From: a virus
Length of the DNA: 64,000 nucleotides
Virus record (IMG/VR): IMGVR_UViG_3300042895_001344
Span: 124,001 to 188,000 of that record
Direction: 5' to 3' (one strand)
In this document: positions 39,618 through 63,520 of the stretch, piece by piece
Layout of the letters: every line of letters begins with the position of its first letter
Numbering within the stretch: position 1 is the stretch's first letter
The notes under the pieces: model-generated
Seen by the model: only the letters and a program-made list of their open reading frames with translations
Told to the model about the DNA's origin: nothing
Databases searched by the model: none
Translations under genes and position numbers: made by a program

Positions 39618-40838
39618 ATGTCAAAAATTAGAATTTTAGCAATTCCATCGGATAAGCATGGTGTAGGTAAGTTTAGAATGATGGATCCATTTGTATTCAT
39701 TTCAGATAAACATTCGGAAGATATTCACGTAGATATTTCGTATAATGCGGAAGATAGAGATGATTATTTTTTAAACTACGATATTGTAGTTTTTCATACT
39801 TTTATCCATCAAACAAATCACGAACATAACATTAAAAGAATTAATTGGTTAAAATCCAAAGGTATTATTACTATTATGGATATTGATGACCTATGGTTTG
39901 TTGATCAAAGACATCCAATGTATCATGCAATTAAAATGAATAAAGTTGGTGAGATGAAAATTGACATGTTAAAGACAGTTGATTATGTTAGTACTACCAC
40001 TCCAATATTTGCAAAAACAATTAAAGATAAATTAAAAGTTAATAATGTTGTTGTTTTTCCAAATGCGGTAAATGAAGATGAACCACAGTTTCAAAATAAA
40101 CCTGTTCAATCAGATAAAGTTAGATTTGGTTGGTTAGGTGGGTCTTCTCATTTACATGATTTAGAGTTATTGTCTAATGGAATTTCTTCCACATATAATT
40201 TATTTAAAGATAAAGTACAATTTGTTTTATGTGGGTTTGATACAAGAGGTAGTGTTACTGTGATTGATCAGAGTGGTAAACAACAACAAAGACCTATACA
40301 ACCAACTGAAACAGTATGGTACAAATATGAAGGATTTTTCACAGATGATTTTAAAGTATTAAGTTCTGAATATAAAAATTATTTAGGAACATTTACTCAA
40401 GGAGATTACAACGACATAGATGAACCATATAGAAGAAGATGGACAAAAGATATTAACAGTTATGCAACAAACTATAACACGTTTGACGTATCATTAGCAC
40501 CGTTAGTTGATTCGGTATTCAACGCAAATAAATCACAATTAAAAGTAATTGAAGCGGGATTTTTTAAGAAGGCAATCATTGCAAGTGATGTTGATCCATT
40601 TACAATCGATTTAATTTCTGCGGTTGATGAAGGTAAGTTTAATGATAAAGGAAACGCATTATTAGTAGGTTCTAAAAAGAACCATAAAGATTGGGCAAAA
40701 CATATGAAACGTTTAGTTGAAAATCCTAATATGATTGAAGACTTAGGTAATCGTTTATATGAAACAGTTAAAGACACATACTCATTAAAGAAAGTATGTA
40801 AAGATAGAGTAGAATTTTTTAAATCAATAATAAAATAA
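39618..40838 (+). CDS. Glycosyltransferase, GT-B fold
   Basis: This 406-residue protein has two Rossmann-type domains. Domain 1 has KIRILAIPSDKHGVGKFRMM and an IITIMDIDDLWFVDQRHPMY segment. Domain 2 begins near residue 165 with VRFGWLGGSSHLHDLELL and closes with the nucleotide-sugar binding region SQLKVIEAGFFKKAIIASDV. This order is typical of GT-B glycosyltransferases. Likely substrates are host or virion carbohydrates, or modified DNA bases; the sequence cannot decide. It heads a plus-strand run of early-type genes behind a Bacteroidota promoter candidate. Confidence 0.7.
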   Translation: MSKIRILAIPSDKHGVGKFRMMDPFVFISDKHSEDIHVDISYNAEDRDDYFLNYDIVVFHTFIHQTNHEHNIKRINWLKSKGIITIMDIDDLWFVDQRHPMYHAIKMNKVGEMKIDMLKTVDYVSTTTPIFAKTIKDKLKVNNVVVFPNAVNEDEPQFQNKPVQSDKVRFGWLGGSSHLHDLELLSNGISSTYNLFKDKVQFVLCGFDTRGSVTVIDQSGKQQQRPIQPTETVWYKYEGFFTDDFKVLSSEYKNYLGTFTQGDYNDIDEPYRRRWTKDINSYATNYNTFDVSLAPLVDSVFNANKSQLKVIEAGFFKKAIIASDVDPFTIDLISAVDEGKFNDKGNALLVGSKKNHKDWAKHMKRLVENPNMIEDLGNRLYETVKDTYSLKKVCKDRVEFFKSIIK

Positions 40839-44680: not shown

Positions 44681-45460
44681 ATGAAAAATATAACAGTAAT
44701 TTTACCTGTACATAGACTAGATGGCATTTATAAAGAAATGTTAGATAATTCGATTAAATCAGTTGAACAATTTCATAATGATGTTAACTTATCAATAGTA
44801 TGTCCACCATCATTAAAAACAGAATTAGTAAATTTATCTGAAGTTTTAGAAATTGAAGTTATTTCTAACAATGGTAAAACTGATTTTTGTTCTCAAGTAA
44901 ATTTGGGAATTGAAAAATGTAAAACTGAATGGTTTAGTATTTTAGAAATTGATGATGAGTATAAATCAATTTGGTTAAAATCAACAAACGAATATGTTAA
45001 AACATATACCGATGTTGATGTATTTTTACCTGTAGTTAAGGATATTAATGTTGATGGAAATTTTGTAAGTTTTACAAATGAATCAACTTGGGCATATGGG
45101 TTTACTGAAAAACAAGGTATATTGGATAATGAAGTTTTATTAGATTTTCAAAACTATCAAATTAGTGGTGGACTTTATAAAACACAAGTTATTAAAGATA
45201 ATGGTTCATTAAAAGAAAATATCAAGTTAACATTTGGTTATGAGTTTTTATTAAGATTAACACATAACAATATTAAGGTTATGACCGTACCAAGAGTAGG
45301 ATATCAACACTTAAACTTTAGAGAGGATTCGTTATTTTGGTCATATAAAAACGATGAAACTAATAAGATTAGTGAAGATGAGGCTAAGTTTTGGTTGGAG
45401 ACGGCAAAGAAGGAATTTTTCTTTAAAAATAAACGAGATGTAAATTATGAAATAGCTTAA
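44681..45460 (+). CDS. GT-A (family 2-like) glycosyltransferase
   Basis: This 259-residue protein opens with NITVILPVHRLDGIYKEMLD, the standard GT2 first strand and loop. EWFSILEIDDEYKSIWL near residue 87 gives the metal-binding region: EIDDEY stands where family members have a DxD motif. GGLYKTQVIKDNGSLKENIK follows. The gene starts 1 nt after the GT-B gene and ends overlapping the sigma factor start by 1 nt, so the three are probably expressed together. It may act with the two GT-B enzymes, making three glycosyltransferases within 6 kb. Confidence 0.7.
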   Translation: MKNITVILPVHRLDGIYKEMLDNSIKSVEQFHNDVNLSIVCPPSLKTELVNLSEVLEIEVISNNGKTDFCSQVNLGIEKCKTEWFSILEIDDEYKSIWLKSTNEYVKTYTDVDVFLPVVKDINVDGNFVSFTNESTWAYGFTEKQGILDNEVLLDFQNYQISGGLYKTQVIKDNGSLKENIKLTFGYEFLLRLTHNNIKVMTVPRVGYQHLNFREDSLFWSYKNDETNKISEDEAKFWLETAKKEFFFKNKRDVNYEIA

Positions 45461-46161
45461 TGCCAAGACCAAGAACCCAAAAAATATATTTTGGGGAGGA
45501 TCAAGAGAAGGCGGTAGTCAATTACTTAGAAAGTACTGATGAAGCAGAAAAAAATAAGATATTCAATGAATATTTACGTGAACCCCTAATTATAATGGTC
45601 GAATCAATTATTCGACGTTATAAACTTTATAGAAAAGATATGGAATTTGAAGAGATTCATACAGACACCATGTCCTTTCTTATAACAAAGATCAACAAGT
45701 TTGATCATACCAAGAATACCAAAGCATATTCTTATTTTGGTACCATCTGTAAAAACTACCTTATGGGTGCAATACAGAAGGATACAAAGGAACAAAACAG
45801 ACAAGTATCGTATGATGATATATCCTCAGATTTTGAAGATAGTAAAGACCTTTCATATGTAATTGACGAATTCGTAGTTGATTACGCATCTGTAATTGTA
45901 AAACTTACCGTGGATTTAGAAAATTTTGTGGAAAAGGAAAAAAACCTATCTGATAATGAAAGAAAACTGGGTTATGCATTATTAGAAATTTTTGGAAACT
46001 TCGATAAGATATTTCAAGTAGGAGATGGTAATAAATTCAATAAGAACCTCATTTTACTCTCTTTAAGAGAAATGACCTCATTATCAACAAAAGAGATTAG
46101 AGTCTCCCTAAAACGTTACAAGAAATTATATGACGGTATTTTGGGTGGGTTTTTAGAATAA
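45460..46161 (+). CDS. Late-transcription sigma factor, gp55-like
   Basis: This 233-residue protein has a sigma-70 region 2 pattern: LIIMVESIIRRYKLYRKDME near 43-62, then FLITKINKFDHTKNTKAYSY (72-91) and FGTICKNYLMGAIQKD (92-107). Such sigma factors recruit RNA polymerase to phage late promoters in T4 (gp55). The C-terminal half is helical (GYALLEIFGNFDKIFQVGDG) without a clear region 4, as in gp55. The probable target is the TATTTATA box in front of many virion genes. It starts on the last base of the glycosyltransferase stop region. Confidence 0.75.
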   Translation: MPRPRTQKIYFGEDQEKAVVNYLESTDEAEKNKIFNEYLREPLIIMVESIIRRYKLYRKDMEFEEIHTDTMSFLITKINKFDHTKNTKAYSYFGTICKNYLMGAIQKDTKEQNRQVSYDDISSDFEDSKDLSYVIDEFVVDYASVIVKLTVDLENFVEKEKNLSDNERKLGYALLEIFGNFDKIFQVGDGNKFNKNLILLSLREMTSLSTKEIRVSLKRYKKLYDGILGGFLE

Positions 46162-54503: not shown

Positions 54504-56261
54504 TTATCTTAATGTATCTAAACCAAACACTTGGATACCTTGTACATCGATTACACCGAAGTAACGGTTGTTCACCATTTTCTTTGCGTAACGTGTCATG
54601 ATACCTTTGATTGGAGTCATGTTGAATGGATTGTACATTGTAGGAGTTAATTGTAATGGCACATATGGTGCGTATACATAACCTGCATCTAACAATGATT
54701 TTCCTTTATGACCGATCAAGATTTTGTTAGCTGGGAAGTAAGGATCACGATACACTTGGTAACGACCACCTACTGTACCGATTTTCTCGATACCCATGTT
54801 ATATTGATCTTGTTCTGGTTCTGCGTTAGAAACGTGGAAATACTCTAAATCATCGAATACTGCAGAAACTTCTGAAGAAACAACGATCCAGTTAGCACCA
54901 CCTCTTAACGTAGTTTTGTGGATTTGAGCAGAAATTTGGTTGATTTTTGTAACCAAAGTTTGGTTCCAATCTTTTTGAGTGTAACCTTGTAAAGTTGAGT
55001 TTCCAGATCCACCGTATTTCCATCCATTGTAATCCCATTTAGCTTTCCATGCTGCACCTTTACGTAAGTCACGTAAGATTTCACGGTCAACCTCAGCAGC
55101 GATTTGCTCTGATAATAAAGCTGTCAATTCAGCTTCAGCGTCGATGTTGTGGAACGCACTAACATCTTGTGCTAATTCTGGAGACCAGCTAGCTCTTAAT
55201 TTTCTTTCAGTTACAGAAACTGTTACTGATTCTAAATCAAAAGATACTTCACCAATTTGATCTTCAAACTCCAAAGTATCGTACTTGCGATAAGAAGCGT
55301 TGAATTCTGTTCTTGCTAAAGTTGAACCTGTTACTTCGTAATCAGAAAAACCCGAAGTTGGGTCGTATTTTTGTAAATCTACTTGTACATAGATTTTACC
55401 GTCAGTATCACAAATATCGTAGAAATTTTGTGTTGCGTTAGTTGTTTTAGCACCGTATTCTACAATACCTTTACCGTACTTTTGAGTAACGATATTGATT
55501 GGTAATGAAGTACCTGTAGTTGCACCTAAGAAAGCTAATAAGTTAGCATCTGAAGTGAAAACTTGTAATGAAGCTAAGAATTCTTCAGAATCCATTTCAT
55601 TACCGTCTGGTCCTTTCAATTTACCTGCACCTGCAGATTCAAATCCTTCTAATTCTAAAATTACATAAGATTTAGTTGTACCGGTATTAATAGCAGATGT
55701 ACTTGTAGTAACTTCACCGTTAGAGAAAGTTGTGAAACCATTTACAGTTAATGCGCTAACAGAATAAGCACCTTTTGAATAATCAAAAAGACCTTGTTCT
55801 AAGTCGTCATTAGCTTCGTAGAAACGATCGTAAAGATTCTTAGCACCTGTATTATAACCTGCTGTTGCAGCGTCAGAGTTACCTGGCATACCGTAAGGAG
55901 AGTAATGACCGTTAGCGTCAGTTCTCTCTTGGATTTTAGGTACGAAGAAGAACAATTTACCGATTGGTAAGTTCATAGCTTGTACAGACACGATGTCGTT
56001 AGCTAATAATTTAGAGAATACACGACGAATGATAGGGAAAACTACAGTCTCGAAAGAACCAGACGCATCAGCTACTGCTGCTTCGTTGATTAAGTAAGAC
56101 GCTTGGTTTTCATACAATTGCGCGATGTTATCTTTTTGGTGACCACCAAGACCCTCTAAGAATCCTAATTCGTCCCATTTTTTAATGGTATCTTCTTTGA
56201 TAACTCTAAGGTGCTTAAGACCTATGTTACCAACCATACCGCTTTCTAATAATGCTCCCAT
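54504..56261 (-). CDS. Major capsid protein, gp23-like
   Basis: This 585-residue protein has the T4-like capsid order: a cleaved N-terminal part, then FETVVFPIIRRVFSKLLAND (69-88), VQAMNLPIGKLFFFVPKIQE, a long insertion region, LRASWSPELAQDVSAFHNID, and a C-terminal domain with GRYQVYRDPYFPANKILIGH and ALTKGIMTRYAKKM-like ending (IKGIMTRYAKKMVNNRYFGV). T4 gp23 is 521 aa. The N-terminal YLINE60-AAVAD junction gives the prohead-protease consensus (I/L-x-E). T4 cleaves its capsid protein after Glu65, so the position fits well. The scaffold gene is 22 nt upstream, and a strong terminator follows. Confidence 0.93.
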   Translation of the reverse strand: MGALLESGMVGNIGLKHLRVIKEDTIKKWDELGFLEGLGGHQKDNIAQLYENQASYLINEAAVADASGSFETVVFPIIRRVFSKLLANDIVSVQAMNLPIGKLFFFVPKIQERTDANGHYSPYGMPGNSDAATAGYNTGAKNLYDRFYEANDDLEQGLFDYSKGAYSVSALTVNGFTTFSNGEVTTSTSAINTGTTKSYVILELEGFESAGAGKLKGPDGNEMDSEEFLASLQVFTSDANLLAFLGATTGTSLPINIVTQKYGKGIVEYGAKTTNATQNFYDICDTDGKIYVQVDLQKYDPTSGFSDYEVTGSTLARTEFNASYRKYDTLEFEDQIGEVSFDLESVTVSVTERKLRASWSPELAQDVSAFHNIDAEAELTALLSEQIAAEVDREILRDLRKGAAWKAKWDYNGWKYGGSGNSTLQGYTQKDWNQTLVTKINQISAQIHKTTLRGGANWIVVSSEVSAVFDDLEYFHVSNAEPEQDQYNMGIEKIGTVGGRYQVYRDPYFPANKILIGHKGKSLLDAGYVYAPYVPLQLTPTMYNPFNMTPIKGIMTRYAKKMVNNRYFGVIDVQGIQVFGLDTLR

Positions 56262-56283: not shown

Positions 56284-57582
56284 TTATTTTATTTTTCTCA
56301 TCATTTCTTTAATTCTACTGAATTGAGGATTTTCATAAGCTTTTGACTCAGATAATACCTCTGTAGAAGAAGATGTTGATGGAGTGTTAGAGATTTTTTT
56401 CGCAACTGATTCGGTAACCGTAGTTTTTGAACCTAATTCAGTTTTGATTGTTGAGAATAAAGACTTAGCTTCATTCATAGTAGAAACTGTATCAAATCTC
56501 TTTAATATATTCAATTTCTCTTGTTTTGTAGTTGAATGTTCAGTAAACAAACGTGTAGCGTAAGCTAAGTTTGCATTGAATACTGCAACTTCATTTAGTT
56601 TATCCTTGAATAATACTAACGCCTTTTTATATTCAGCATTTTGTTTTTTCAATGTTTCAACTTGTTCGTTGATACCTGAACCCGCTTTGTACATTTTTTT
56701 AGATGGTAAACCAGCTCTTTTCATACCGTTCTTGTTTCCATGAGGGTTTGATTTTGTACGTGCAGCTTCTGTAGCTTCAACTTTTTTAGGTTCTTCAACC
56801 TCGTCTTCCTCGTCTAATTCGATTTCATAGATAGTTTCTTCGTCAGCTTCTAATTCGTCTTCAGCATCAACATCTTCCATATCGGTTTCTGTATCAACAT
56901 CAGATTCTAAATCAGAATCAACGTCTGTATCCATTCCACTCATATCAACGTCGGAATCAACGTCAGAATCAACATCTGTATCTAAGTCAGCTCCCATGTC
57001 CATTCCAGTATCAAGATCAGAATCTTCACTATCTAATTTGATAATGTATTCATTTTCTCCGTCACCGAATTCGACATTGTTACCGTCTTTTTTAACTACA
57101 ATACCATCTTCTGGTTTCATAGCCTTGAATACTTTAAGAACTTCATCGTCTGAAGCACCTGTCATATCCATAACGTCTTCATCATCCATTGAACCTTCGT
57201 CACTCATAGATTCCATATCAGTACCCATATCGGTACCCATGTCATCCATGTCAACATCAGTGTCAACATCCGAATCAACGTCATCTGTTGAGTCTAAGTT
57301 ATCGAGGTCTGTATCTGTATCAACATCTGTATCAACGTCTTCTTCAGATTCATCATCTGTGTCTTCGTCGTCAGCTGTTACATCTTGTTCTGCCTCTTCT
57401 TCAGGTTTAGCAACTTCTTCATCAGTTGTTGTTTCTTCCTCTTCTTCCAATGATTCTTTTAGCAAATCTTTAAGTTCTTCCTTCATTGTTGAAGCAAGTA
57501 TACCTTTTGCATTTTGCTTTACGGCCTCTTCAAGATTTTGTACTTGAAGTAACGCTTGTTCTAAAATTGATTTTTCGCTCAT
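56284..57582 (-). CDS. Prohead scaffold/core protein, gp22-like
   Basis: This 432-residue protein begins MSEKSILEQALLQVQNLEEA. Residues about 50-270 are extremely acidic, made of D/V/S/T/M repeats (VDTDVDTDTDLDNLDS and DVDSDVDMSGMDTDVDS). The C-terminal third is helical (LKKQNAEYKKALVLFKDKLN) and ends in SRIKEMMRKIK. Its place directly upstream of the capsid gene and downstream of the protease, its acidic centre and helical end fit T4 gp22, the major prohead core protein removed by proteolysis. T4 gp22 is 269 aa, so the acidic block makes this one larger. A TATTTATA box lies 27 nt upstream, so scaffold and capsid may be made from one late transcript. Confidence 0.8.
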   Translation of the reverse strand: MSEKSILEQALLQVQNLEEAVKQNAKGILASTMKEELKDLLKESLEEEEETTTDEEVAKPEEEAEQDVTADDEDTDDESEEDVDTDVDTDTDLDNLDSTDDVDSDVDTDVDMDDMGTDMGTDMESMSDEGSMDDEDVMDMTGASDDEVLKVFKAMKPEDGIVVKKDGNNVEFGDGENEYIIKLDSEDSDLDTGMDMGADLDTDVDSDVDSDVDMSGMDTDVDSDLESDVDTETDMEDVDAEDELEADEETIYEIELDEEDEVEEPKKVEATEAARTKSNPHGNKNGMKRAGLPSKKMYKAGSGINEQVETLKKQNAEYKKALVLFKDKLNEVAVFNANLAYATRLFTEHSTTKQEKLNILKRFDTVSTMNEAKSLFSTIKTELGSKTTVTESVAKKISNTPSTSSSTEVLSESKAYENPQFSRIKEMMRKIK

Positions 57583-57671: not shown

Positions 57672-58355
57672 TTATTTAGATAGAAATGTATCTAAATTGC
57701 CCATAAGTTTAGACATTCTACTGTCAAGTGTTGGTTTCTTAATTTCCGCTTCTTGATATTGGTCTCTTTCTGATGGGTCTTTAAAAATATAAGCACCGGG
57801 AGTTGATGGTGATGATACTAAATCAAAACAAACTAATTCGAAATCATCTTGTACGATGTTTTCTCCTTTAACTTGTTTAAGTGATCCTACACCACGTGAA
57901 GAGATACCTAAAGTTGCCCCGTTCATTAATAACATCGCAGCTTGATCTCCTTTGGTTGAAACGATACCCATCTTCTTCCATCCAGGAGAAGTGAATAACT
58001 TGATTTTACCCATAAGGATTCTACCGTCCCACCAAGTTTCTAAAATTGAATGTGATACTCGATCTAAATCGATTAGTGAAGATGAAGGGTGATTTAATTC
58101 ATTTAATGCTCCACCCTTTTTAATTAGTGATTGATATTTTTCGTTTTCTCTCTTAAGTAACATTTCAGGATATATCCTTCCGTTCTTATTTGGAGTATCG
58201 AATTTTTGTAAAACAGCATAAAGGATTAGATCTTCAGAGAAGTCCACACCCTTCATTTCCTGTATAATTTTTTTATTCTCTTCTGGAGATACGTGTCCTG
58301 CGTCGTATTCTATTAAAATTCCTGTTCCAAGTTCTTTGGGTCCTAATATCTTCAT
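57672..58355 (-). CDS. Prohead maturation protease, gp21-like
   Basis: This 227-residue serine protease shows the T4 gp21 (family S77-like) plan. It has LILYAVLQKFDTPNKNGRIY (43-62), the catalytic His89 in NELNHPSSSLIDLD, and the catalytic Ser (152 or 153) in GATLGISSRGVGS. ELVCFDLVSSPSTPGAYIFK follows. Length is close to T4 gp21 (212 aa). It cleaves core and capsid proteins at (I/L)-x-E. It lies upstream of the scaffold gene, as in T4, with the box 16 nt before its ATG. Confidence 0.88.
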   Translation of the reverse strand: MKILGPKELGTGILIEYDAGHVSPEENKKIIQEMKGVDFSEDLILYAVLQKFDTPNKNGRIYPEMLLKRENEKYQSLIKKGGALNELNHPSSSLIDLDRVSHSILETWWDGRILMGKIKLFTSPGWKKMGIVSTKGDQAAMLLMNGATLGISSRGVGSLKQVKGENIVQDDFELVCFDLVSSPSTPGAYIFKDPSERDQYQEAEIKKPTLDSRMSKLMGNLDTFLSK

Positions 58356-58393: not shown

Positions 58394-58819
58394 TTATTTT
58401 TTGGATTTGTAGAAATTGAATAGATTTTTGTCAGAAAGTCCATCTTCTATTACCATAGATAGAATATCTTTTACGTTATTTTTAATTTCTTTTGATTTAA
58501 CGTCGAACTGTTTATCAACATATAATGTGATTTCTAAGTTCATAAAAGATCTTTTTTCTAATTTAATTCCCTTTGTTCTAATATCTAAATCAACAATAGA
58601 TTGTTGTTTAAAATAAGGGTTCTTAAGATTATAAATTATTTCTTTAACCTTTCGTCTTGATTTATGAATCATATGATCAAAATCATCAGTCTCATTTTCG
58701 GCTTGTACCCATGAGTTTAATTTCAAATAAATGGTTTTAAGATTCTTAAAATCTACGGTACCATAACCGATCTTTACATCATTGTAAATCCCTAATGGGA
58801 TATACTTACCTGTTTTCAT
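58394..58819 (-). CDS. Prohead core protein candidate (gp68 position)
   Basis: This 141-residue protein begins MKTGKYIPLGIYNDVKIGYG. It has a helical middle (DFDHMIHKSRRKVKEIIYNL) and beta strands (FMNLEITLYVDKQFDVK). Its length equals that of T4 gp68 (141 aa), and it sits exactly where gene 68 sits, between portal-side genes and gp21. Sequence alone does not prove homology. It has no late box, so it may be read from further upstream, past the bS21 gene on the other strand. Confidence 0.5.
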   Translation of the reverse strand: MKTGKYIPLGIYNDVKIGYGTVDFKNLKTIYLKLNSWVQAENETDDFDHMIHKSRRKVKEIIYNLKNPYFKQQSIVDLDIRTKGIKLEKRSFMNLEITLYVDKQFDVKSKEIKNNVKDILSMVIEDGLSDKNLFNFYKSKK

Positions 58820-58872: not shown

Positions 58873-58904
58873 TTGGAATAACCAAAAATAATTTCATATA
58901 TTTG
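58873..58904 (+). promoter_or_regulatory. Bacteroidota-type promoter of the bS21 gene
   Basis: TTG (58873-58875), a 21-nt spacer, then TATATTTG (58897-58904), a perfect match to TAnnTTTG. The start codon is only 17 nt beyond, so the transcript would have a leader of about 10 nt. This would be recognised by the host sigma factor. Confidence 0.6.
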
Positions 58905-58921
58905 TTGTATATTTATTATAT

Positions 58922-59113
58922 ATGATTATTATAGACTTATCTAAAGAAAAAAGTATTGAGACAGCGTTAAGAACTTATAAACAAAAAGTTCAAAAAACAA
59001 AGCAAGTTCAAAAATTGAGGGAAAGACAACAGTTCGTAAAACCTTCCGTTAAAAAAAGAACTGAAAAATTAAAAGCAGTTTATTTACAACAAAAAAGAAA
59101 TGGACTTAGTTAA
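58922..59113 (+). CDS. rpsU: Ribosomal protein bS21 homolog
   Basis: This 63-residue basic protein matches bS21 over its whole length: IIIDLSKEKSIETALRTYKQ, then LRERQQFVKPSVKKRTEKLK and AVYLQQKRNGLS. Conserved features are the SIETALRTYK helix, the RQxFxKPSxKKR core and the C-terminal basic helix. In Flavobacteriia bS21 holds the 3' end of 16S rRNA (anti-SD) together with bS18 and bS6. A Tyr54 that I recall as part of that contact is also Tyr54 here. It is the only plus-strand gene in the head module, has its own host-type promoter, and its end overlaps the convergent gene by 8 nt. It could replace host bS21 to alter mRNA choice during infection. Confidence 0.88.
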   Translation: MIIIDLSKEKSIETALRTYKQKVQKTKQVQKLRERQQFVKPSVKKRTEKLKAVYLQQKRNGLS

Positions 59114-59843
59114 GTCCATTTTTTAATTCGTTTAATCTGTAGTAATTGTATCTCGACGGAAACATTTGATTTACTTCATCTTTAACAGCATTTAATTTAT
59201 TTATTAAATCCGTTTCATTTGATTCACTTAAAAGTGTTGATACTTGACTTACAATTGATTCTTTTAATTCAGTTGTTTTGGTGATGATCTCATCATAAGG
59301 AATAGATAAGATATTTTTTAATTCTTCTTTTTGTGATTCTGATAATGTATTAGAATAAAGAGCGTTAAAATTGTTTGTTAACACCGCATTTAATAAATTT
59401 TCATTTGGTATCAAGGTTGAATCTTTAGATTCTTTAATTTCTTTTTTGGTTGTTAAATGATTTACTAAATTCTTTTTTGCATTAACCTTCTTTTCAATAT
59501 TTGATAGACTATCTTTTTCAATTAAGATATCTAATGAATTGTATATTTCATTTTCATTAATTGCCTCTACGTTTATCATTTTATTTAATGATGTACAAAA
59601 TGTAGTTAAATCATCCATTTGTTGTTTTAAGATACTAATAACTCCCTCGACGTATAACTTTGCGGTTTCTTTATCGTCAATATATTTGTTTTCAATTTCT
59701 TCATAAAACAAATACATTTCTTTAAAATTTTTATTTTCTTTAATTGTTGTTAAAATATTTTTAATCTCACCTTTATTTTCATTGGTGTAAGATTCAGTTA
59801 ACTTGTTTAATAATTTGGTTTTAATGACCCCGAATTTGTTCAT
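59106..59843 (-). CDS. Helical protein at the gp67 position, unknown
   Basis: This 245-residue, Asn/Lys/Glu-rich helical protein begins MNKFGVIKTKLLNKLTESYT. It contains long helices such as EMYLFYEEIENKYIDDKETA and KLNAVKDEVNQMF near the end. It starts 2 nt after the portal stop, as T4 gene 67 follows gene 20, but gp67 is only 80 aa, so homology is doubtful. Relatives of this type occur in other phages without known function, as I recall. A prohead core or portal-assembly role is a guess from position. Confidence 0.55.
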   Translation of the reverse strand: MNKFGVIKTKLLNKLTESYTNENKGEIKNILTTIKENKNFKEMYLFYEEIENKYIDDKETAKLYVEGVISILKQQMDDLTTFCTSLNKMINVEAINENEIYNSLDILIEKDSLSNIEKKVNAKKNLVNHLTTKKEIKESKDSTLIPNENLLNAVLTNNFNALYSNTLSESQKEELKNILSIPYDEIITKTTELKESIVSQVSTLLSESNETDLINKLNAVKDEVNQMFPSRYNYYRLNELKNGLN

Positions 59844-59845
59844 GT

Positions 59846-61687
59846 TTAATCGTTTAAGATATCATTTATTTTTGTCTCTATTTCATAAATATTCTGTTGA
59901 GCTTTTTCCATATCAAACAGAATATTAAAATCTTCTTTTTCTTCACCTAACATACCAAGTATTTTAGATTTTTTTGATTTTTTAGCTAATGTAGATTCAC
60001 TCAAAGGTTCCTCTCCTCCACCCGCTGGTGGCGGTGGTGCTCCACCTCCCATATCCATTCCTCCACCTCCCATATCCATTCCTCCACCCGCTTCTGCTCC
60101 TGCGGCTTCCATTGCCTTTTCTCTATCCTCTTCAGGAATACCATACTTAGCATCTACCTCATCAAATACACCTGAACGTTTAATAACATTCTGAGTATTC
60201 GTTAATTCAAATCCTAATGCACGTTCTAAACGTTGTTGTTGTAAGTCTAACATAACTTCACTATCACTAAATCCAAGGATATTTTTCTTAGCCCATGTAT
60301 GTGATACTGGTAAGATACCCACTTGAGATTGATCCGATGTTGCGTCTTTATAAAGTGTTACTTTTTCTTTCCATTGTTCAATACGTAATAAATCAGATTG
60401 TGCTGATGGGTTAGTTAATGATAATGAGAAATTATTTAATTCATCCTCCATACCTAAAAGGTATAATTGAATTAATGCAATTTTATTTAATTCTTGAATA
60501 ACAGATTTTTGAATTCTATTAATAGTTCTAGCAAAACGAATATCCATTAAAGCTAAACTCTTACCTTCACCGACAACTTCTTCAAATCCTAAGAACGCTT
60601 TAGGTATACGTAATGCGGCTAACATCTTCTTTTGAATGTATTCAATATCAGCAATCTCTCCTAAGTTTTGTGCTCCTGGTAATGTTTCAATTGGATTAGA
60701 TTGTGATGGATCACGAACAGGAATAAAATAATCCTGATCAACAGCCATTTGATTATATCTCATATCGACTTGACCGTTACGTGGATCTGAAATCTGATCT
60801 CTTTTAAATTTGTTTGCAACACGTTGTACGTAAGATTCAATATCCTTATCATCCATATTACCAACGAATACTTTGAATACACGTCTTTCAGGTGCTCTTG
60901 ATGTTCTATAGATTAACATGGCATCTTCAGCAAGTAAAAGTTGTTTCCAAATACGTCTAATTTTATCTAACATAGAAGTACCGTAAGGTAACTTTCTATC
61001 ATCACCTAATAATCTAAAGTGAGCAATTTCCCATGCTTGAAATTCCAAATCTTTGTTCTTCCATTGAAAACGTAATTCTCTTGATGGAACTTTTAAATCT
61101 CTATTTTGTGTTGTGGTCTTACCCGCGGCACCTTCAATTCTTTCAATTTCAATATTTGGTAATTGTTGACATCCGATGATACCTTTTTCGGGATCTAACT
61201 TTAAATAAACAAAGTTGTCACCATACTTACAAACACCTCTAGTCCACATTTGTAAGTTAGTATTAACGTCTAATCTGTTATTAAATAAATCTTCTAATAT
61301 TTCTTTAATTCTATCTGATTCAGAATAGATCGTTAAAATTTGACCCTTTTCAGACATTGTAGTGGATTCTTCCGCATATATGTCTAACGCTGCAGATATT
61401 TCAGGAGTAAACTCCATCGCCTCATAATCGTAATAAGCTGCTAATCTATTTGGTTCATAATAAACCGATTGGTTATAGAGAGATTGGTCTAATTTAGTCC
61501 ATTTATCAGCGATGTATTGACTCTGTTGAGCCTGTAACATTGCCTTATCATAATCTTCTTTGTTATCTGTTTTTAATAATTCATCTTTACTGAAATTAAA
61601 TGAAGGTGCCTGTGTTACCTGAGGTTTCCCTGGGTACCCAAACATCTTTGTTAATTTCTGAAATACAGTTAAATTTTGATTTGCCAT
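59846..61687 (-). CDS. Portal protein, gp20-like
   Basis: This 613-residue protein has the T4-like portal pattern: YYEPNRLAAYYDYEAMEFTP, then ISAALDIYAEESTTMSEKGQ, KYGDNFVYLKLDPEKGIIGC, an EFQAWEIAHFRLLGDDRKLP segment, LLAEDAMLIYRTSRAPERRV and IPKAFLGFEEVVGEGKSLAL. T4 gp20 is 524 aa; the extra length is a C-terminal acidic/Gly/Met-rich tail (GGGMDMGGGGMDMGGGAPPP). Portal forms the dodecameric DNA entry vertex. The TATTTATA box ends 4 nt before the ATG, and the gene follows the terminase by 55 nt. Confidence 0.92.
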   Translation of the reverse strand: MANQNLTVFQKLTKMFGYPGKPQVTQAPSFNFSKDELLKTDNKEDYDKAMLQAQQSQYIADKWTKLDQSLYNQSVYYEPNRLAAYYDYEAMEFTPEISAALDIYAEESTTMSEKGQILTIYSESDRIKEILEDLFNNRLDVNTNLQMWTRGVCKYGDNFVYLKLDPEKGIIGCQQLPNIEIERIEGAAGKTTTQNRDLKVPSRELRFQWKNKDLEFQAWEIAHFRLLGDDRKLPYGTSMLDKIRRIWKQLLLAEDAMLIYRTSRAPERRVFKVFVGNMDDKDIESYVQRVANKFKRDQISDPRNGQVDMRYNQMAVDQDYFIPVRDPSQSNPIETLPGAQNLGEIADIEYIQKKMLAALRIPKAFLGFEEVVGEGKSLALMDIRFARTINRIQKSVIQELNKIALIQLYLLGMEDELNNFSLSLTNPSAQSDLLRIEQWKEKVTLYKDATSDQSQVGILPVSHTWAKKNILGFSDSEVMLDLQQQRLERALGFELTNTQNVIKRSGVFDEVDAKYGIPEEDREKAMEAAGAEAGGGMDMGGGGMDMGGGAPPPPAGGGEEPLSESTLAKKSKKSKILGMLGEEKEDFNILFDMEKAQQNIYEIETKINDILND

Positions 61688-61741: not shown

Positions 61742-63520
61742 TTATCTACGTTTACCAAATAACCAAGAATTCTCTTGATATGTTTGTTTACTGACATTCA
61801 TATTATTATCTCGATAATATAAATTATTATTATCCGTTCCCATTGAACCTATTTGATCAAATGCGGTACCATATGAATAGAATGATTTACTTGTCTCATA
61901 TGATCTTTCACTCATAGTCCAAGAATCTAACATTGCTTTGTTCGCATTTTCGTTCTTTTGTAATAAATTAAATGATACATCCGCAGCATATAAAGCCATT
62001 GACATACCCATAATAGCATCATCATGTGTTCCTTTCATATGATCAGGTCTACCGTTCATATAAACAAACGTGTTAAGTTCGTTTAATAATCTTGCAGATC
62101 TAACAATAAATCCTTTTCTAAGTTGTTCCTCAAATGCTGCAACAATTTGAGTTCTTTTGTTGTTAAAGTTAAGACCTGGTATTTTCTCCATCGCCTTAGC
62201 GTTATAGTCCCAAATGTTTTGAGTATTAACACCCTCAACGTATACGTTTTTGTAATTTAACTCAGTTAATTTTCTTGATGTTGCAACTCCCATTCCACCT
62301 GTAATATCCGTTACAATAAACGCATTACCATATAGGATAGCCCATTTGTATGCAACTGCCGCTAAGTCATCGGGAGGTATTTTACCAATATATTCTGCAA
62401 CCTGTTCCCTATCATCAAAATCTATAATTGATATAGCCGAAAAATCCTCACTATCTCCTCTACTAACATCCACACCCATAATATAACGATGACCAATTAT
62501 TGGTTCTTTCCATTGCCAAAACGTAGCCTGCATGTATTTTTCAATAGGTTCTCTAATCATGTTTTTAGCAATATTCTCTTGAATATCACCAGGGATAACA
62601 CCATCTCCCGAACCTAAGAAATCACATTCCAACTCCTGAGCAATTTTACGTCTATCGTATTTAAATTTCTTAGACATTGACTCAAACCACGAAGAAAATG
62701 GTTTATAACCATCCTCTAAAAGTTTGTTATATTCTTTCATATCAAAATCATGTAAAACAACTTCATCGTCATTATATTGTTCTCTATTCAACATGTAATG
62801 ACAGATGTCCTGACATTTAACCCAATGTAAATCTTTGGTGTAACGAGGGTCTTTAAACCACCTTAAATCTGTTATATGGAAATCATTGATTCCACGTAAT
62901 GCTTGGTCGTAAACACCGTAATAGATAGGGTCATAACCATTTGGAGTGGAGATAAGAATAATCTTACCACCCGTTGATAGGGACGCCATAGATGCTGCCC
63001 AAAAATCATCACCTGCTTCAATATATGCTGCCTCATCAAATACAAGTATGGTAGGTGTATAACCACGAAGGGCATCCGCTGAAGTTGCAACCGCCTTAAC
63101 CTCACAACCATTATTTAATCTAAATCTACTCTCTGAGTTTTTATCAGGTGAGAACCCAACATTTAACCATTCAGGCCATTGTTCCAAGAAGTGTCTAACC
63201 TTATTAGCCATCTCCACCGCAGTATCACGTTTGTTTGCAATAAGTAGAACTCTCTCAGGATTATCGGGTTTTGCTAATTGTAATTTTTTTGATAACCATG
63301 CGGCCGTTACTGTTGTTACACCCGCCTGTCTATATTTTCTTGTAATGTTTTCGTTGTAATCTTCGTAGTCCTTTATTAGTTGAATTTGATCTTCAAACAG
63401 GTCCATTGGGACATACTTCTTCTGTGTATTATCGAATGTTTGTAAATACGTTCTAAGTGCATACGGAGTATCTTTTATAATCTTTGCATACTCAATTAAT
63501 TGTTCCGTTCTGGTATTCAT
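61742..63520 (-). CDS. Terminase large subunit, gp17-like
   Basis: This 592-residue packaging motor has an ATPase and a nuclease domain. In the ATPase part a P-loop-like RKYRQAGVTTVTAAWLS (about 59-75), an adenine-side DNPERVLLIANKRDTAVEMA, and Walker B TILVFDEAAYIEAGDDFW (about 153-170) are seen. IILISTPNGYDPIYY gives the coupling motif. The nuclease acidic residues are in MGVDVSRGDSEDF (about 348), FIVTDITGGMG (about 402) and GTHDDAIMGMS (about 497). The usual Walker A Lys is replaced by Val (RQAGVTT, against SRQLGKTT in T4). T4 gp17 is 610 aa. The box is 5 nt upstream and a terminator lies between it and the upstream gene. Confidence 0.93.
   Translation of the reverse strand: MNTRTEQLIEYAKIIKDTPYALRTYLQTFDNTQKKYVPMDLFEDQIQLIKDYEDYNENITRKYRQAGVTTVTAAWLSKKLQLAKPDNPERVLLIANKRDTAVEMANKVRHFLEQWPEWLNVGFSPDKNSESRFRLNNGCEVKAVATSADALRGYTPTILVFDEAAYIEAGDDFWAASMASLSTGGKIILISTPNGYDPIYYGVYDQALRGINDFHITDLRWFKDPRYTKDLHWVKCQDICHYMLNREQYNDDEVVLHDFDMKEYNKLLEDGYKPFSSWFESMSKKFKYDRRKIAQELECDFLGSGDGVIPGDIQENIAKNMIREPIEKYMQATFWQWKEPIIGHRYIMGVDVSRGDSEDFSAISIIDFDDREQVAEYIGKIPPDDLAAVAYKWAILYGNAFIVTDITGGMGVATSRKLTELNYKNVYVEGVNTQNIWDYNAKAMEKIPGLNFNNKRTQIVAAFEEQLRKGFIVRSARLLNELNTFVYMNGRPDHMKGTHDDAIMGMSMALYAADVSFNLLQKNENANKAMLDSWTMSERSYETSKSFYSYGTAFDQIGSMGTDNNNLYYRDNNMNVSKQTYQENSWLFGKRR

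Follow-up and report, generated by a model that had tools for sequence, protein, structure and literature searches.

Phages are reported to carry bS21 far more often than any other ribosomal protein (PMC9976891). The closest described systems are those of Chen et al. 2022 (PMC9723584), who reported 47 phage genomes in which the bS21 gene runs counter to the head block around it, and inferred Bacteroidetes hosts. All of the phage bS21 proteins in that study have Tyr54 or another aromatic residue there, bS21 is the only ribosomal protein reported for these phages, and its RNA appeared late, alongside capsid RNA, in lake samples. In Flavobacterium johnsoniae, bS21 holds down its own production by way of the exceptionally strong Shine-Dalgarno (SD) sequence of rpsU (McNutt et al. 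2023, PMC9976891). Ribosomes without bS21 or its C-terminus initiate worse on SD-less mRNAs, and bS21-lacking ribosomes initiate better on rpsU (PMC9976891). Tyr54 of Flavobacterium bS21 is reported to stack on A1534 and help to sequester the anti-SD (PMC9976891; PMC9723584). Finally, bS21 of the pelagiphage HTVC008M enters E. coli ribosomes (Mizuno et al. 2019, PMC6375957).

Here we describe a bS21 gene in a window of 64,000 nucleotides, bases 124001-188000 of a virus record totalling 217,142 bases. The kind of locus is already published: Bacteroidota phages with a reverse-strand, late-expressed bS21 bearing Tyr54 (Chen et al. 2022). Compared by architecture only, it matches clades a-e of that study (PMC9723584) in having bS21 on the strand opposite to the terminase (TerL), portal, protease and major capsid protein (MCP) genes. 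It also shares hypothetical genes of the same two kinds on the flanks, Tyr54 and a Bacteroidota-like bS21, whereas the published genomes are complete at 293-331 kb and the present record is a 217-kb piece. New here are conserved upstream elements, the absence of an SD, the contrast with rpsU and a hairpin shared with the neighbouring gene. The text of Chen et al. 2022 contains neither 'promoter' nor 'terminator', and the lack of an SD and the shared hairpin go undiscussed there (PMC9723584). Relative to F. johnsoniae bS21 (7jil; PMC9976891), the phage protein has the same fold family, length, Tyr54 and RxxFxKPS core, but its gene lacks SD-based autoregulation, its N-terminal helix is changed and it ends in NGL(S/N/D). 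The bS21 of Pelagibacter phage HTVC008M (PMC6375957) is likewise borne by a myovirus but belongs with another host phylum, and the phage matches with E values up to 1 did not include it.

Identity, origin and setting of the phage bS21 gene

The bS21 gene is the sole plus-strand gene within a T4-type head module whose other genes all lie on the minus strand. In gene order, the module comprises:

61742-63520, minus strand: terminase (TerL)
59846-61687, minus strand: portal
59106-59843, minus strand: 245-aa neighbour, convergent with bS21, its stop overlapping bS21 by 8 nt; it sits where Chen et al. place bS21_CN
58922-59113, plus strand: bS21 gene, 63 codons plus stop, ATG start, matching PF01165, TIGR00030, PHROG 21469 and PDB 7jil
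58394-58819, minus strand: 141-aa gene on the other flank of bS21
57672-58355, minus strand: prohead protease
56284-57582, minus strand: scaffold-like acidic protein, so named from position and composition only
54504-56261, minus strand: MCP

A reading made from the sequence alone (hereafter the sequence-only reading) had proposed a 63-residue bS21 homolog as a lone plus-strand gene in a minus-strand head module. Both points were borne out: every flanking gene is on the minus strand, and the open reading frame passed the curated cut-offs of Pfam PF01165 (1.1e-11, 44.7 bits; cut-off 27) and NCBIfam TIGR00030 (1.1e-9, 38 bits; cut-off 28.95). It also matched PHROG 21469, 'ribosomal protein S21' (8.8e-7), and the closest solved chain in a PDB search was 7jil, F. 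johnsoniae bS21 (1.2e-10, residues 1-62 aligned). The segments picked out in that reading are all present, with SIETALRTYK at residues 11-20, the RQxFxKPSxKKR core at 35-46 (RQQFVKPSVKKR) and Tyr at 54, and the contact it gave for Tyr54 is the A1534 stacking and aid to sequestration reported in PMC9976891 and PMC9723584. An aromatic residue at position 54 is a Bacteroidia-type mark, and the window gene carries it as Tyr54. The reading also noted that phage bS21 had been reported elsewhere; both locus and idea are in Chen et al. 2022 (PMC9723584).

Scanning IMG/VR with the bS21 protein returned 193 relatives, and we kept the best 80. Together with the window, these best 80 of 193 gave 41 distinct proteins, all of 63 aa and all with Tyr54; the KPS core and Tyr54 are retained across all phage bS21 relatives found. 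Median dN/dS was about 0.13 (54 distinct coding sequences), indicating purifying selection. On the profile scores, conservation and dN/dS we rejected a chance open reading frame. Host contamination was rejected because the record has no 16S match and the relatives retain its phage neighbours.

A tree built from 94 bS21 proteins places all phage sequences in a single clade (100/100) on a long stem among Tyr54-type Bacteroidia; the sequence-only reading had named a Bacteroidota-specific clade position as support for its idea. With 64 columns, the exact sister group of the phage clade does not resolve. This placement supports acquisition from a Bacteroidota host, and on the tree bS21 was probably acquired once and long ago.

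Where a locus had room to tell, the 245-aa neighbour lay beside bS21 in 77/77 cases and the 141-aa gene on its opposite flank in 78/78. Conversely, when loci were fetched by the 245-aa gene alone, and thus with no selection for bS21, bS21 was encoded on the opposite strand and again overlapped by 8 nt in 76 of 76, and four further loci end too early to judge. A family search found none for the 245-aa protein and no convincing family for the 141-aa protein. AlphaFold predicts the 245-aa protein to be all-helical at low confidence (mean pLDDT 58). Its gene comes directly after the portal gene; in T4, the position directly after portal is the place of prohead-core genes. Its tie to bS21 may be a shared terminator and not function. 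Elsewhere in the window, a 406-aa open reading frame (39618-40838, plus strand) matches the phage glycosyltransferase family phrog_7162 (4.1e-40).

Upstream elements and the shared hairpin

Around the bS21 gene and further along the window lie the following elements:

58873-58875, plus strand: TTG, proposed as a -33 element; present, not conserved
58897-58904, plus strand: TATATTTG, a -7 promoter element of Bacteroidota type lying 25 nt ahead of the ATG
58910-58916, plus strand: TATTTAT, an element resembling a late promoter, 12 nt ahead of the bS21 ATG
59095-59124, either strand: terminator-like hairpin of 13 bp in which bS21 and the 245-aa gene both have their stop codons; T runs occur on both strands
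45460-46161, plus strand: late sigma factor homologue, candidate reader of TATTTAT (phrog_234, late sigma transcription factor, 1.1e-4)

The sequence-only reading had placed a host-type promoter, TTG-21 nt-TATATTTG, before the gene. Both elements are exactly where it put them, but only one is conserved. Among 51 distinct 60-nt sequences upstream of phage bS21, TAnnTTTG begins 23-28 nt before the ATG in 46, whereas TTG at a spacing of 18-22 nt occurs in only 14 of the 51, and we rejected it as a -33 element. Of the two elements of the Bacteroidota primary-sigma promoter, the window has the -7 TAnnTTTG, at 58897-58904, and in place of the -33 TTTG only TTG. Promoters of F. johnsoniae have a nearly invariant -7 element, with transcription starting 4-5 nt downstream of it, and a weak -33 element (PMC6847099). 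Because TAnnTTTG alone is no commoner in the window than in shuffled sequence, the promoter case rests on its conservation. The conserved pattern is consistent with a promoter of host type and, with the start spacing of PMC6847099, predicts a leader of 12-13 nt, somewhat longer than the 10 nt or so first suggested. The host-type label stands for the -7 element but gives only part of the picture: a second, late-type element accompanies it.

Two further features of these upstreams can be noted. CCAAAA (58883-58890, minus strand) lies 3-14 nt upstream of the bS21 TAnnTTTG in 43/51 sequences. The complement at 58883-58890 reads TATTTTTG, so the 141-aa gene may have a promoter back to back with that of bS21; the TA is not retained in all relatives. 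Five relatives (L047, L052, L059, L066 and L081) have no exact TAnnTTTG before bS21, and L047 and L059 have a different leader, AAAGAG(A/G)AATCCTTT.

The second element, TA[ACT]TTAT, is present in 47/51 bS21 upstreams (TATTTAT in 23, TACTTAT in 20, TAATTAT in 4). Genome-wide, TATTTAT lies at most 60 nt upstream of 44 of the 216 predicted genes, against 11.6 +- 3.3 expected from a second-order Markov control (100 runs, maximum 21). Among the relatives, TerL (21/21), portal (29/29) and protease (29/29) always have it upstream. It is missing before MCP (0/24) and before the 245-aa gene (0/35), both of which sit close behind an upstream gene. Its presence before the first three and absence before the close-following genes make it look like a promoter and not a translation signal. 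The bS21 gene therefore has a host-type and a late-type element, the latter more variable than its counterparts at the structural genes. A longer form, [ACG]TATTTAT[AT], precedes the minus-strand genes starting at 63520, 61687, 58355, 57582, 13079 and 11158, among others genome-wide.

The candidate reader at 45460-46161 also matched Sigma70_r2 (4.4e-5), at a score under that family's cut-off. A second sigma-70-like protein is encoded outside the window (G000:C1:81755-81961, minus strand; Sigma70_r2 1.9e-17, 284-aa open frame). The arrangement resembles T4-type late promoters and their gp55-like late sigma in having a single short AT-rich element near late genes and a gp55-like phage protein, but the coding-strand element differs, being TATTTATA in this phage and TATAAATA in T4. 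In 20 of the 44 cases, 4-8 nt separate the end of TATTTAT from the start codon. If the late promoter-to-start spacing of T4 holds, such mRNAs would be nearly leaderless.

At the other end of the gene, the convergent bS21 and 245-aa genes overlap by 8 nt within the shared hairpin, which folds at -13.9 kcal/mol (z -6.0). All of its pairs are kept among 19 distinct variants, with one pair flipping between U-A and A-U (11 vs 8). Covariation is slight, with double changes at two pairs only and a shuffle control that ignores relatedness; an insertion variant, L036, can still pair and points toward conservation of the hairpin. Synonymous difference falls to 0.18 in bS21 codons 59-63, compared with 0.54 elsewhere, and in nearly all cases both the bS21 and the 245-aa proteins terminate in NGL plus one residue. 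Since the last codons lie inside the shared hairpin, the phage bS21 C-terminus may owe more to a nucleic-acid element than to protein function. Chen et al. interpreted the conservation of this C-terminus differently, as pointing to protein function.

Shine-Dalgarno sequences in phage and host

SDs were scored by the energy with which the 25 nt preceding each start codon pair with AUCACCUCCUUUCU, and those below -13 kcal/mol counted as very strong. No phage bS21 upstream reached -8 kcal/mol (0/51; median 0.8, minimum -6.3), so the mark of an autoregulated rpsU, an SD below -13 kcal/mol, was absent from all 51. In the genome at large, none of 192 phage genes (ATG-initiated and 80 codons or longer) had an SD at or below -13 kcal/mol, and the four at or below -8 are about as many as in shuffled sequence. 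With no SD enrichment, we rejected the idea that a changed bS21 unlocks phage SDs. Phage bS21 genes further afield vary: that of a 735-kb phage is preceded by an SD of moderate strength (-12.1), and the others examined have weaker ones or none.

Host genes look different. In the sampled Bacteroidota genomes, 13 of 14 F. johnsoniae-like (MLIIP type) rpsU genes were at or below -13 kcal/mol, typically -17 to -20, as were 15/28 rpsU genes of the Tyr54 type overall. Because its own mRNA has no SD, phage bS21 should escape the rpsU feedback wherever the host uses that loop. Hosts whose rpsU has no strong SD fall outside this expectation, and with a strong SD in only 15 of the 28 the escape may not apply here.

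A proposed role for phage bS21

Taking as established the family, its conservation and purifying selection, the fixed locus, the two upstream elements, the absence of an SD and the shared hairpin, we propose that a late-expressed, feedback-free phage bS21 keeps 30S subunits complete and their anti-SD sequestered for SD-less phage mRNAs, an account we think somewhat more probable than its negation. A functional bS21 of Bacteroidia origin would be expressed with the late genes and would enter host 30S subunits, where its Tyr54-bearing C-terminal part would keep the 16S 3' tail sequestered. Ribosomes would then stay complete and initiate well on SD-less phage mRNAs, presumably to the benefit of late mRNAs. 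Without an SD, the bS21 mRNA would be free of the loop that limits host rpsU and, in hosts that use this loop, the filling of bS21-vacant subunits would lower rpsU translation. This account is supported by the identity of the protein, Tyr54, dN/dS, the tree, the absence of an SD in contrast to host rpsU, and the late-type element with its late-sigma homologue. Published work adds the late RNA in lakes, the behaviour of bS21-lacking ribosomes and the entry of a pelagiphage bS21 into E. coli ribosomes. Against it, the long stem of the phage clade allows a changed function, and the late-type element is looser at bS21 than at structural genes. More tentatively, at rather less than even odds in our estimate, the protein, made from an SD-less late mRNA, could fill vacant 30S subunits, shut off SD-dependent translation of host rpsU, take over the bS21 pool and keep the sequestered state that late phage mRNAs, SD-less and nearly leaderless, need.

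The sequence-only reading had offered two functions, keeping sequestration on during infection or changing which mRNAs are translated. The former fits better, given the lack of SD usage in the phage genome. A form of the latter was put forward by Chen et al. 2022, in which phage bS21 replaces the host protein and an altered N-terminal helix makes 30S subunits prefer phage mRNAs. R21, F23, D25 and T28 of F. johnsoniae are indeed Q, V, K and Q in the phage, at positions that Chen et al. call divergent, and late expression (PMC9723584) is in keeping with the idea. However, a changed helix is not in itself evidence of selection, and we found no distinguishing signal on phage mRNAs, which lack SDs and have A-rich upstreams of the sort that aid F. 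johnsoniae initiation; we regard such specialised ribosomes as unlikely.

Other roles appear less probable again. Phage bS21 might replace a host copy that has been lost or destroyed, or counter a stall in phage protein synthesis, a role suggested by Chen et al. given that Bacteroidota reportedly impose such stalls (PMC9723584); McNutt et al. speculated about a protease that removes host bS21 (PMC9976891). We consider this quite improbable: nearby genes hold no pointer to it, and it overlaps with the completeness account, as both need a functional bS21. The invariant position between head genes could instead mean that bS21 is used in head assembly or packaged with the capsid, and packaging was raised as a possibility by Chen et al. 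(PMC9723584). Yet the ribosome-relevant Tyr54 and KPS core are retained in all relatives, and the gene lies on the opposite strand with upstream elements and a terminator of its own, which leaves a virion part very improbable indeed.

The host circuit in Flavobacterium is understood biochemically, and reporters and mutants exist for it. Because F. johnsoniae-like rpsU has a strong SD whereas the phage gene, like the rest of the phage genome, has none, the role of phage bS21 becomes a testable choice between a protein that keeps ribosomes complete and one that reselects mRNAs, and that choice can be tested without a phage isolate.
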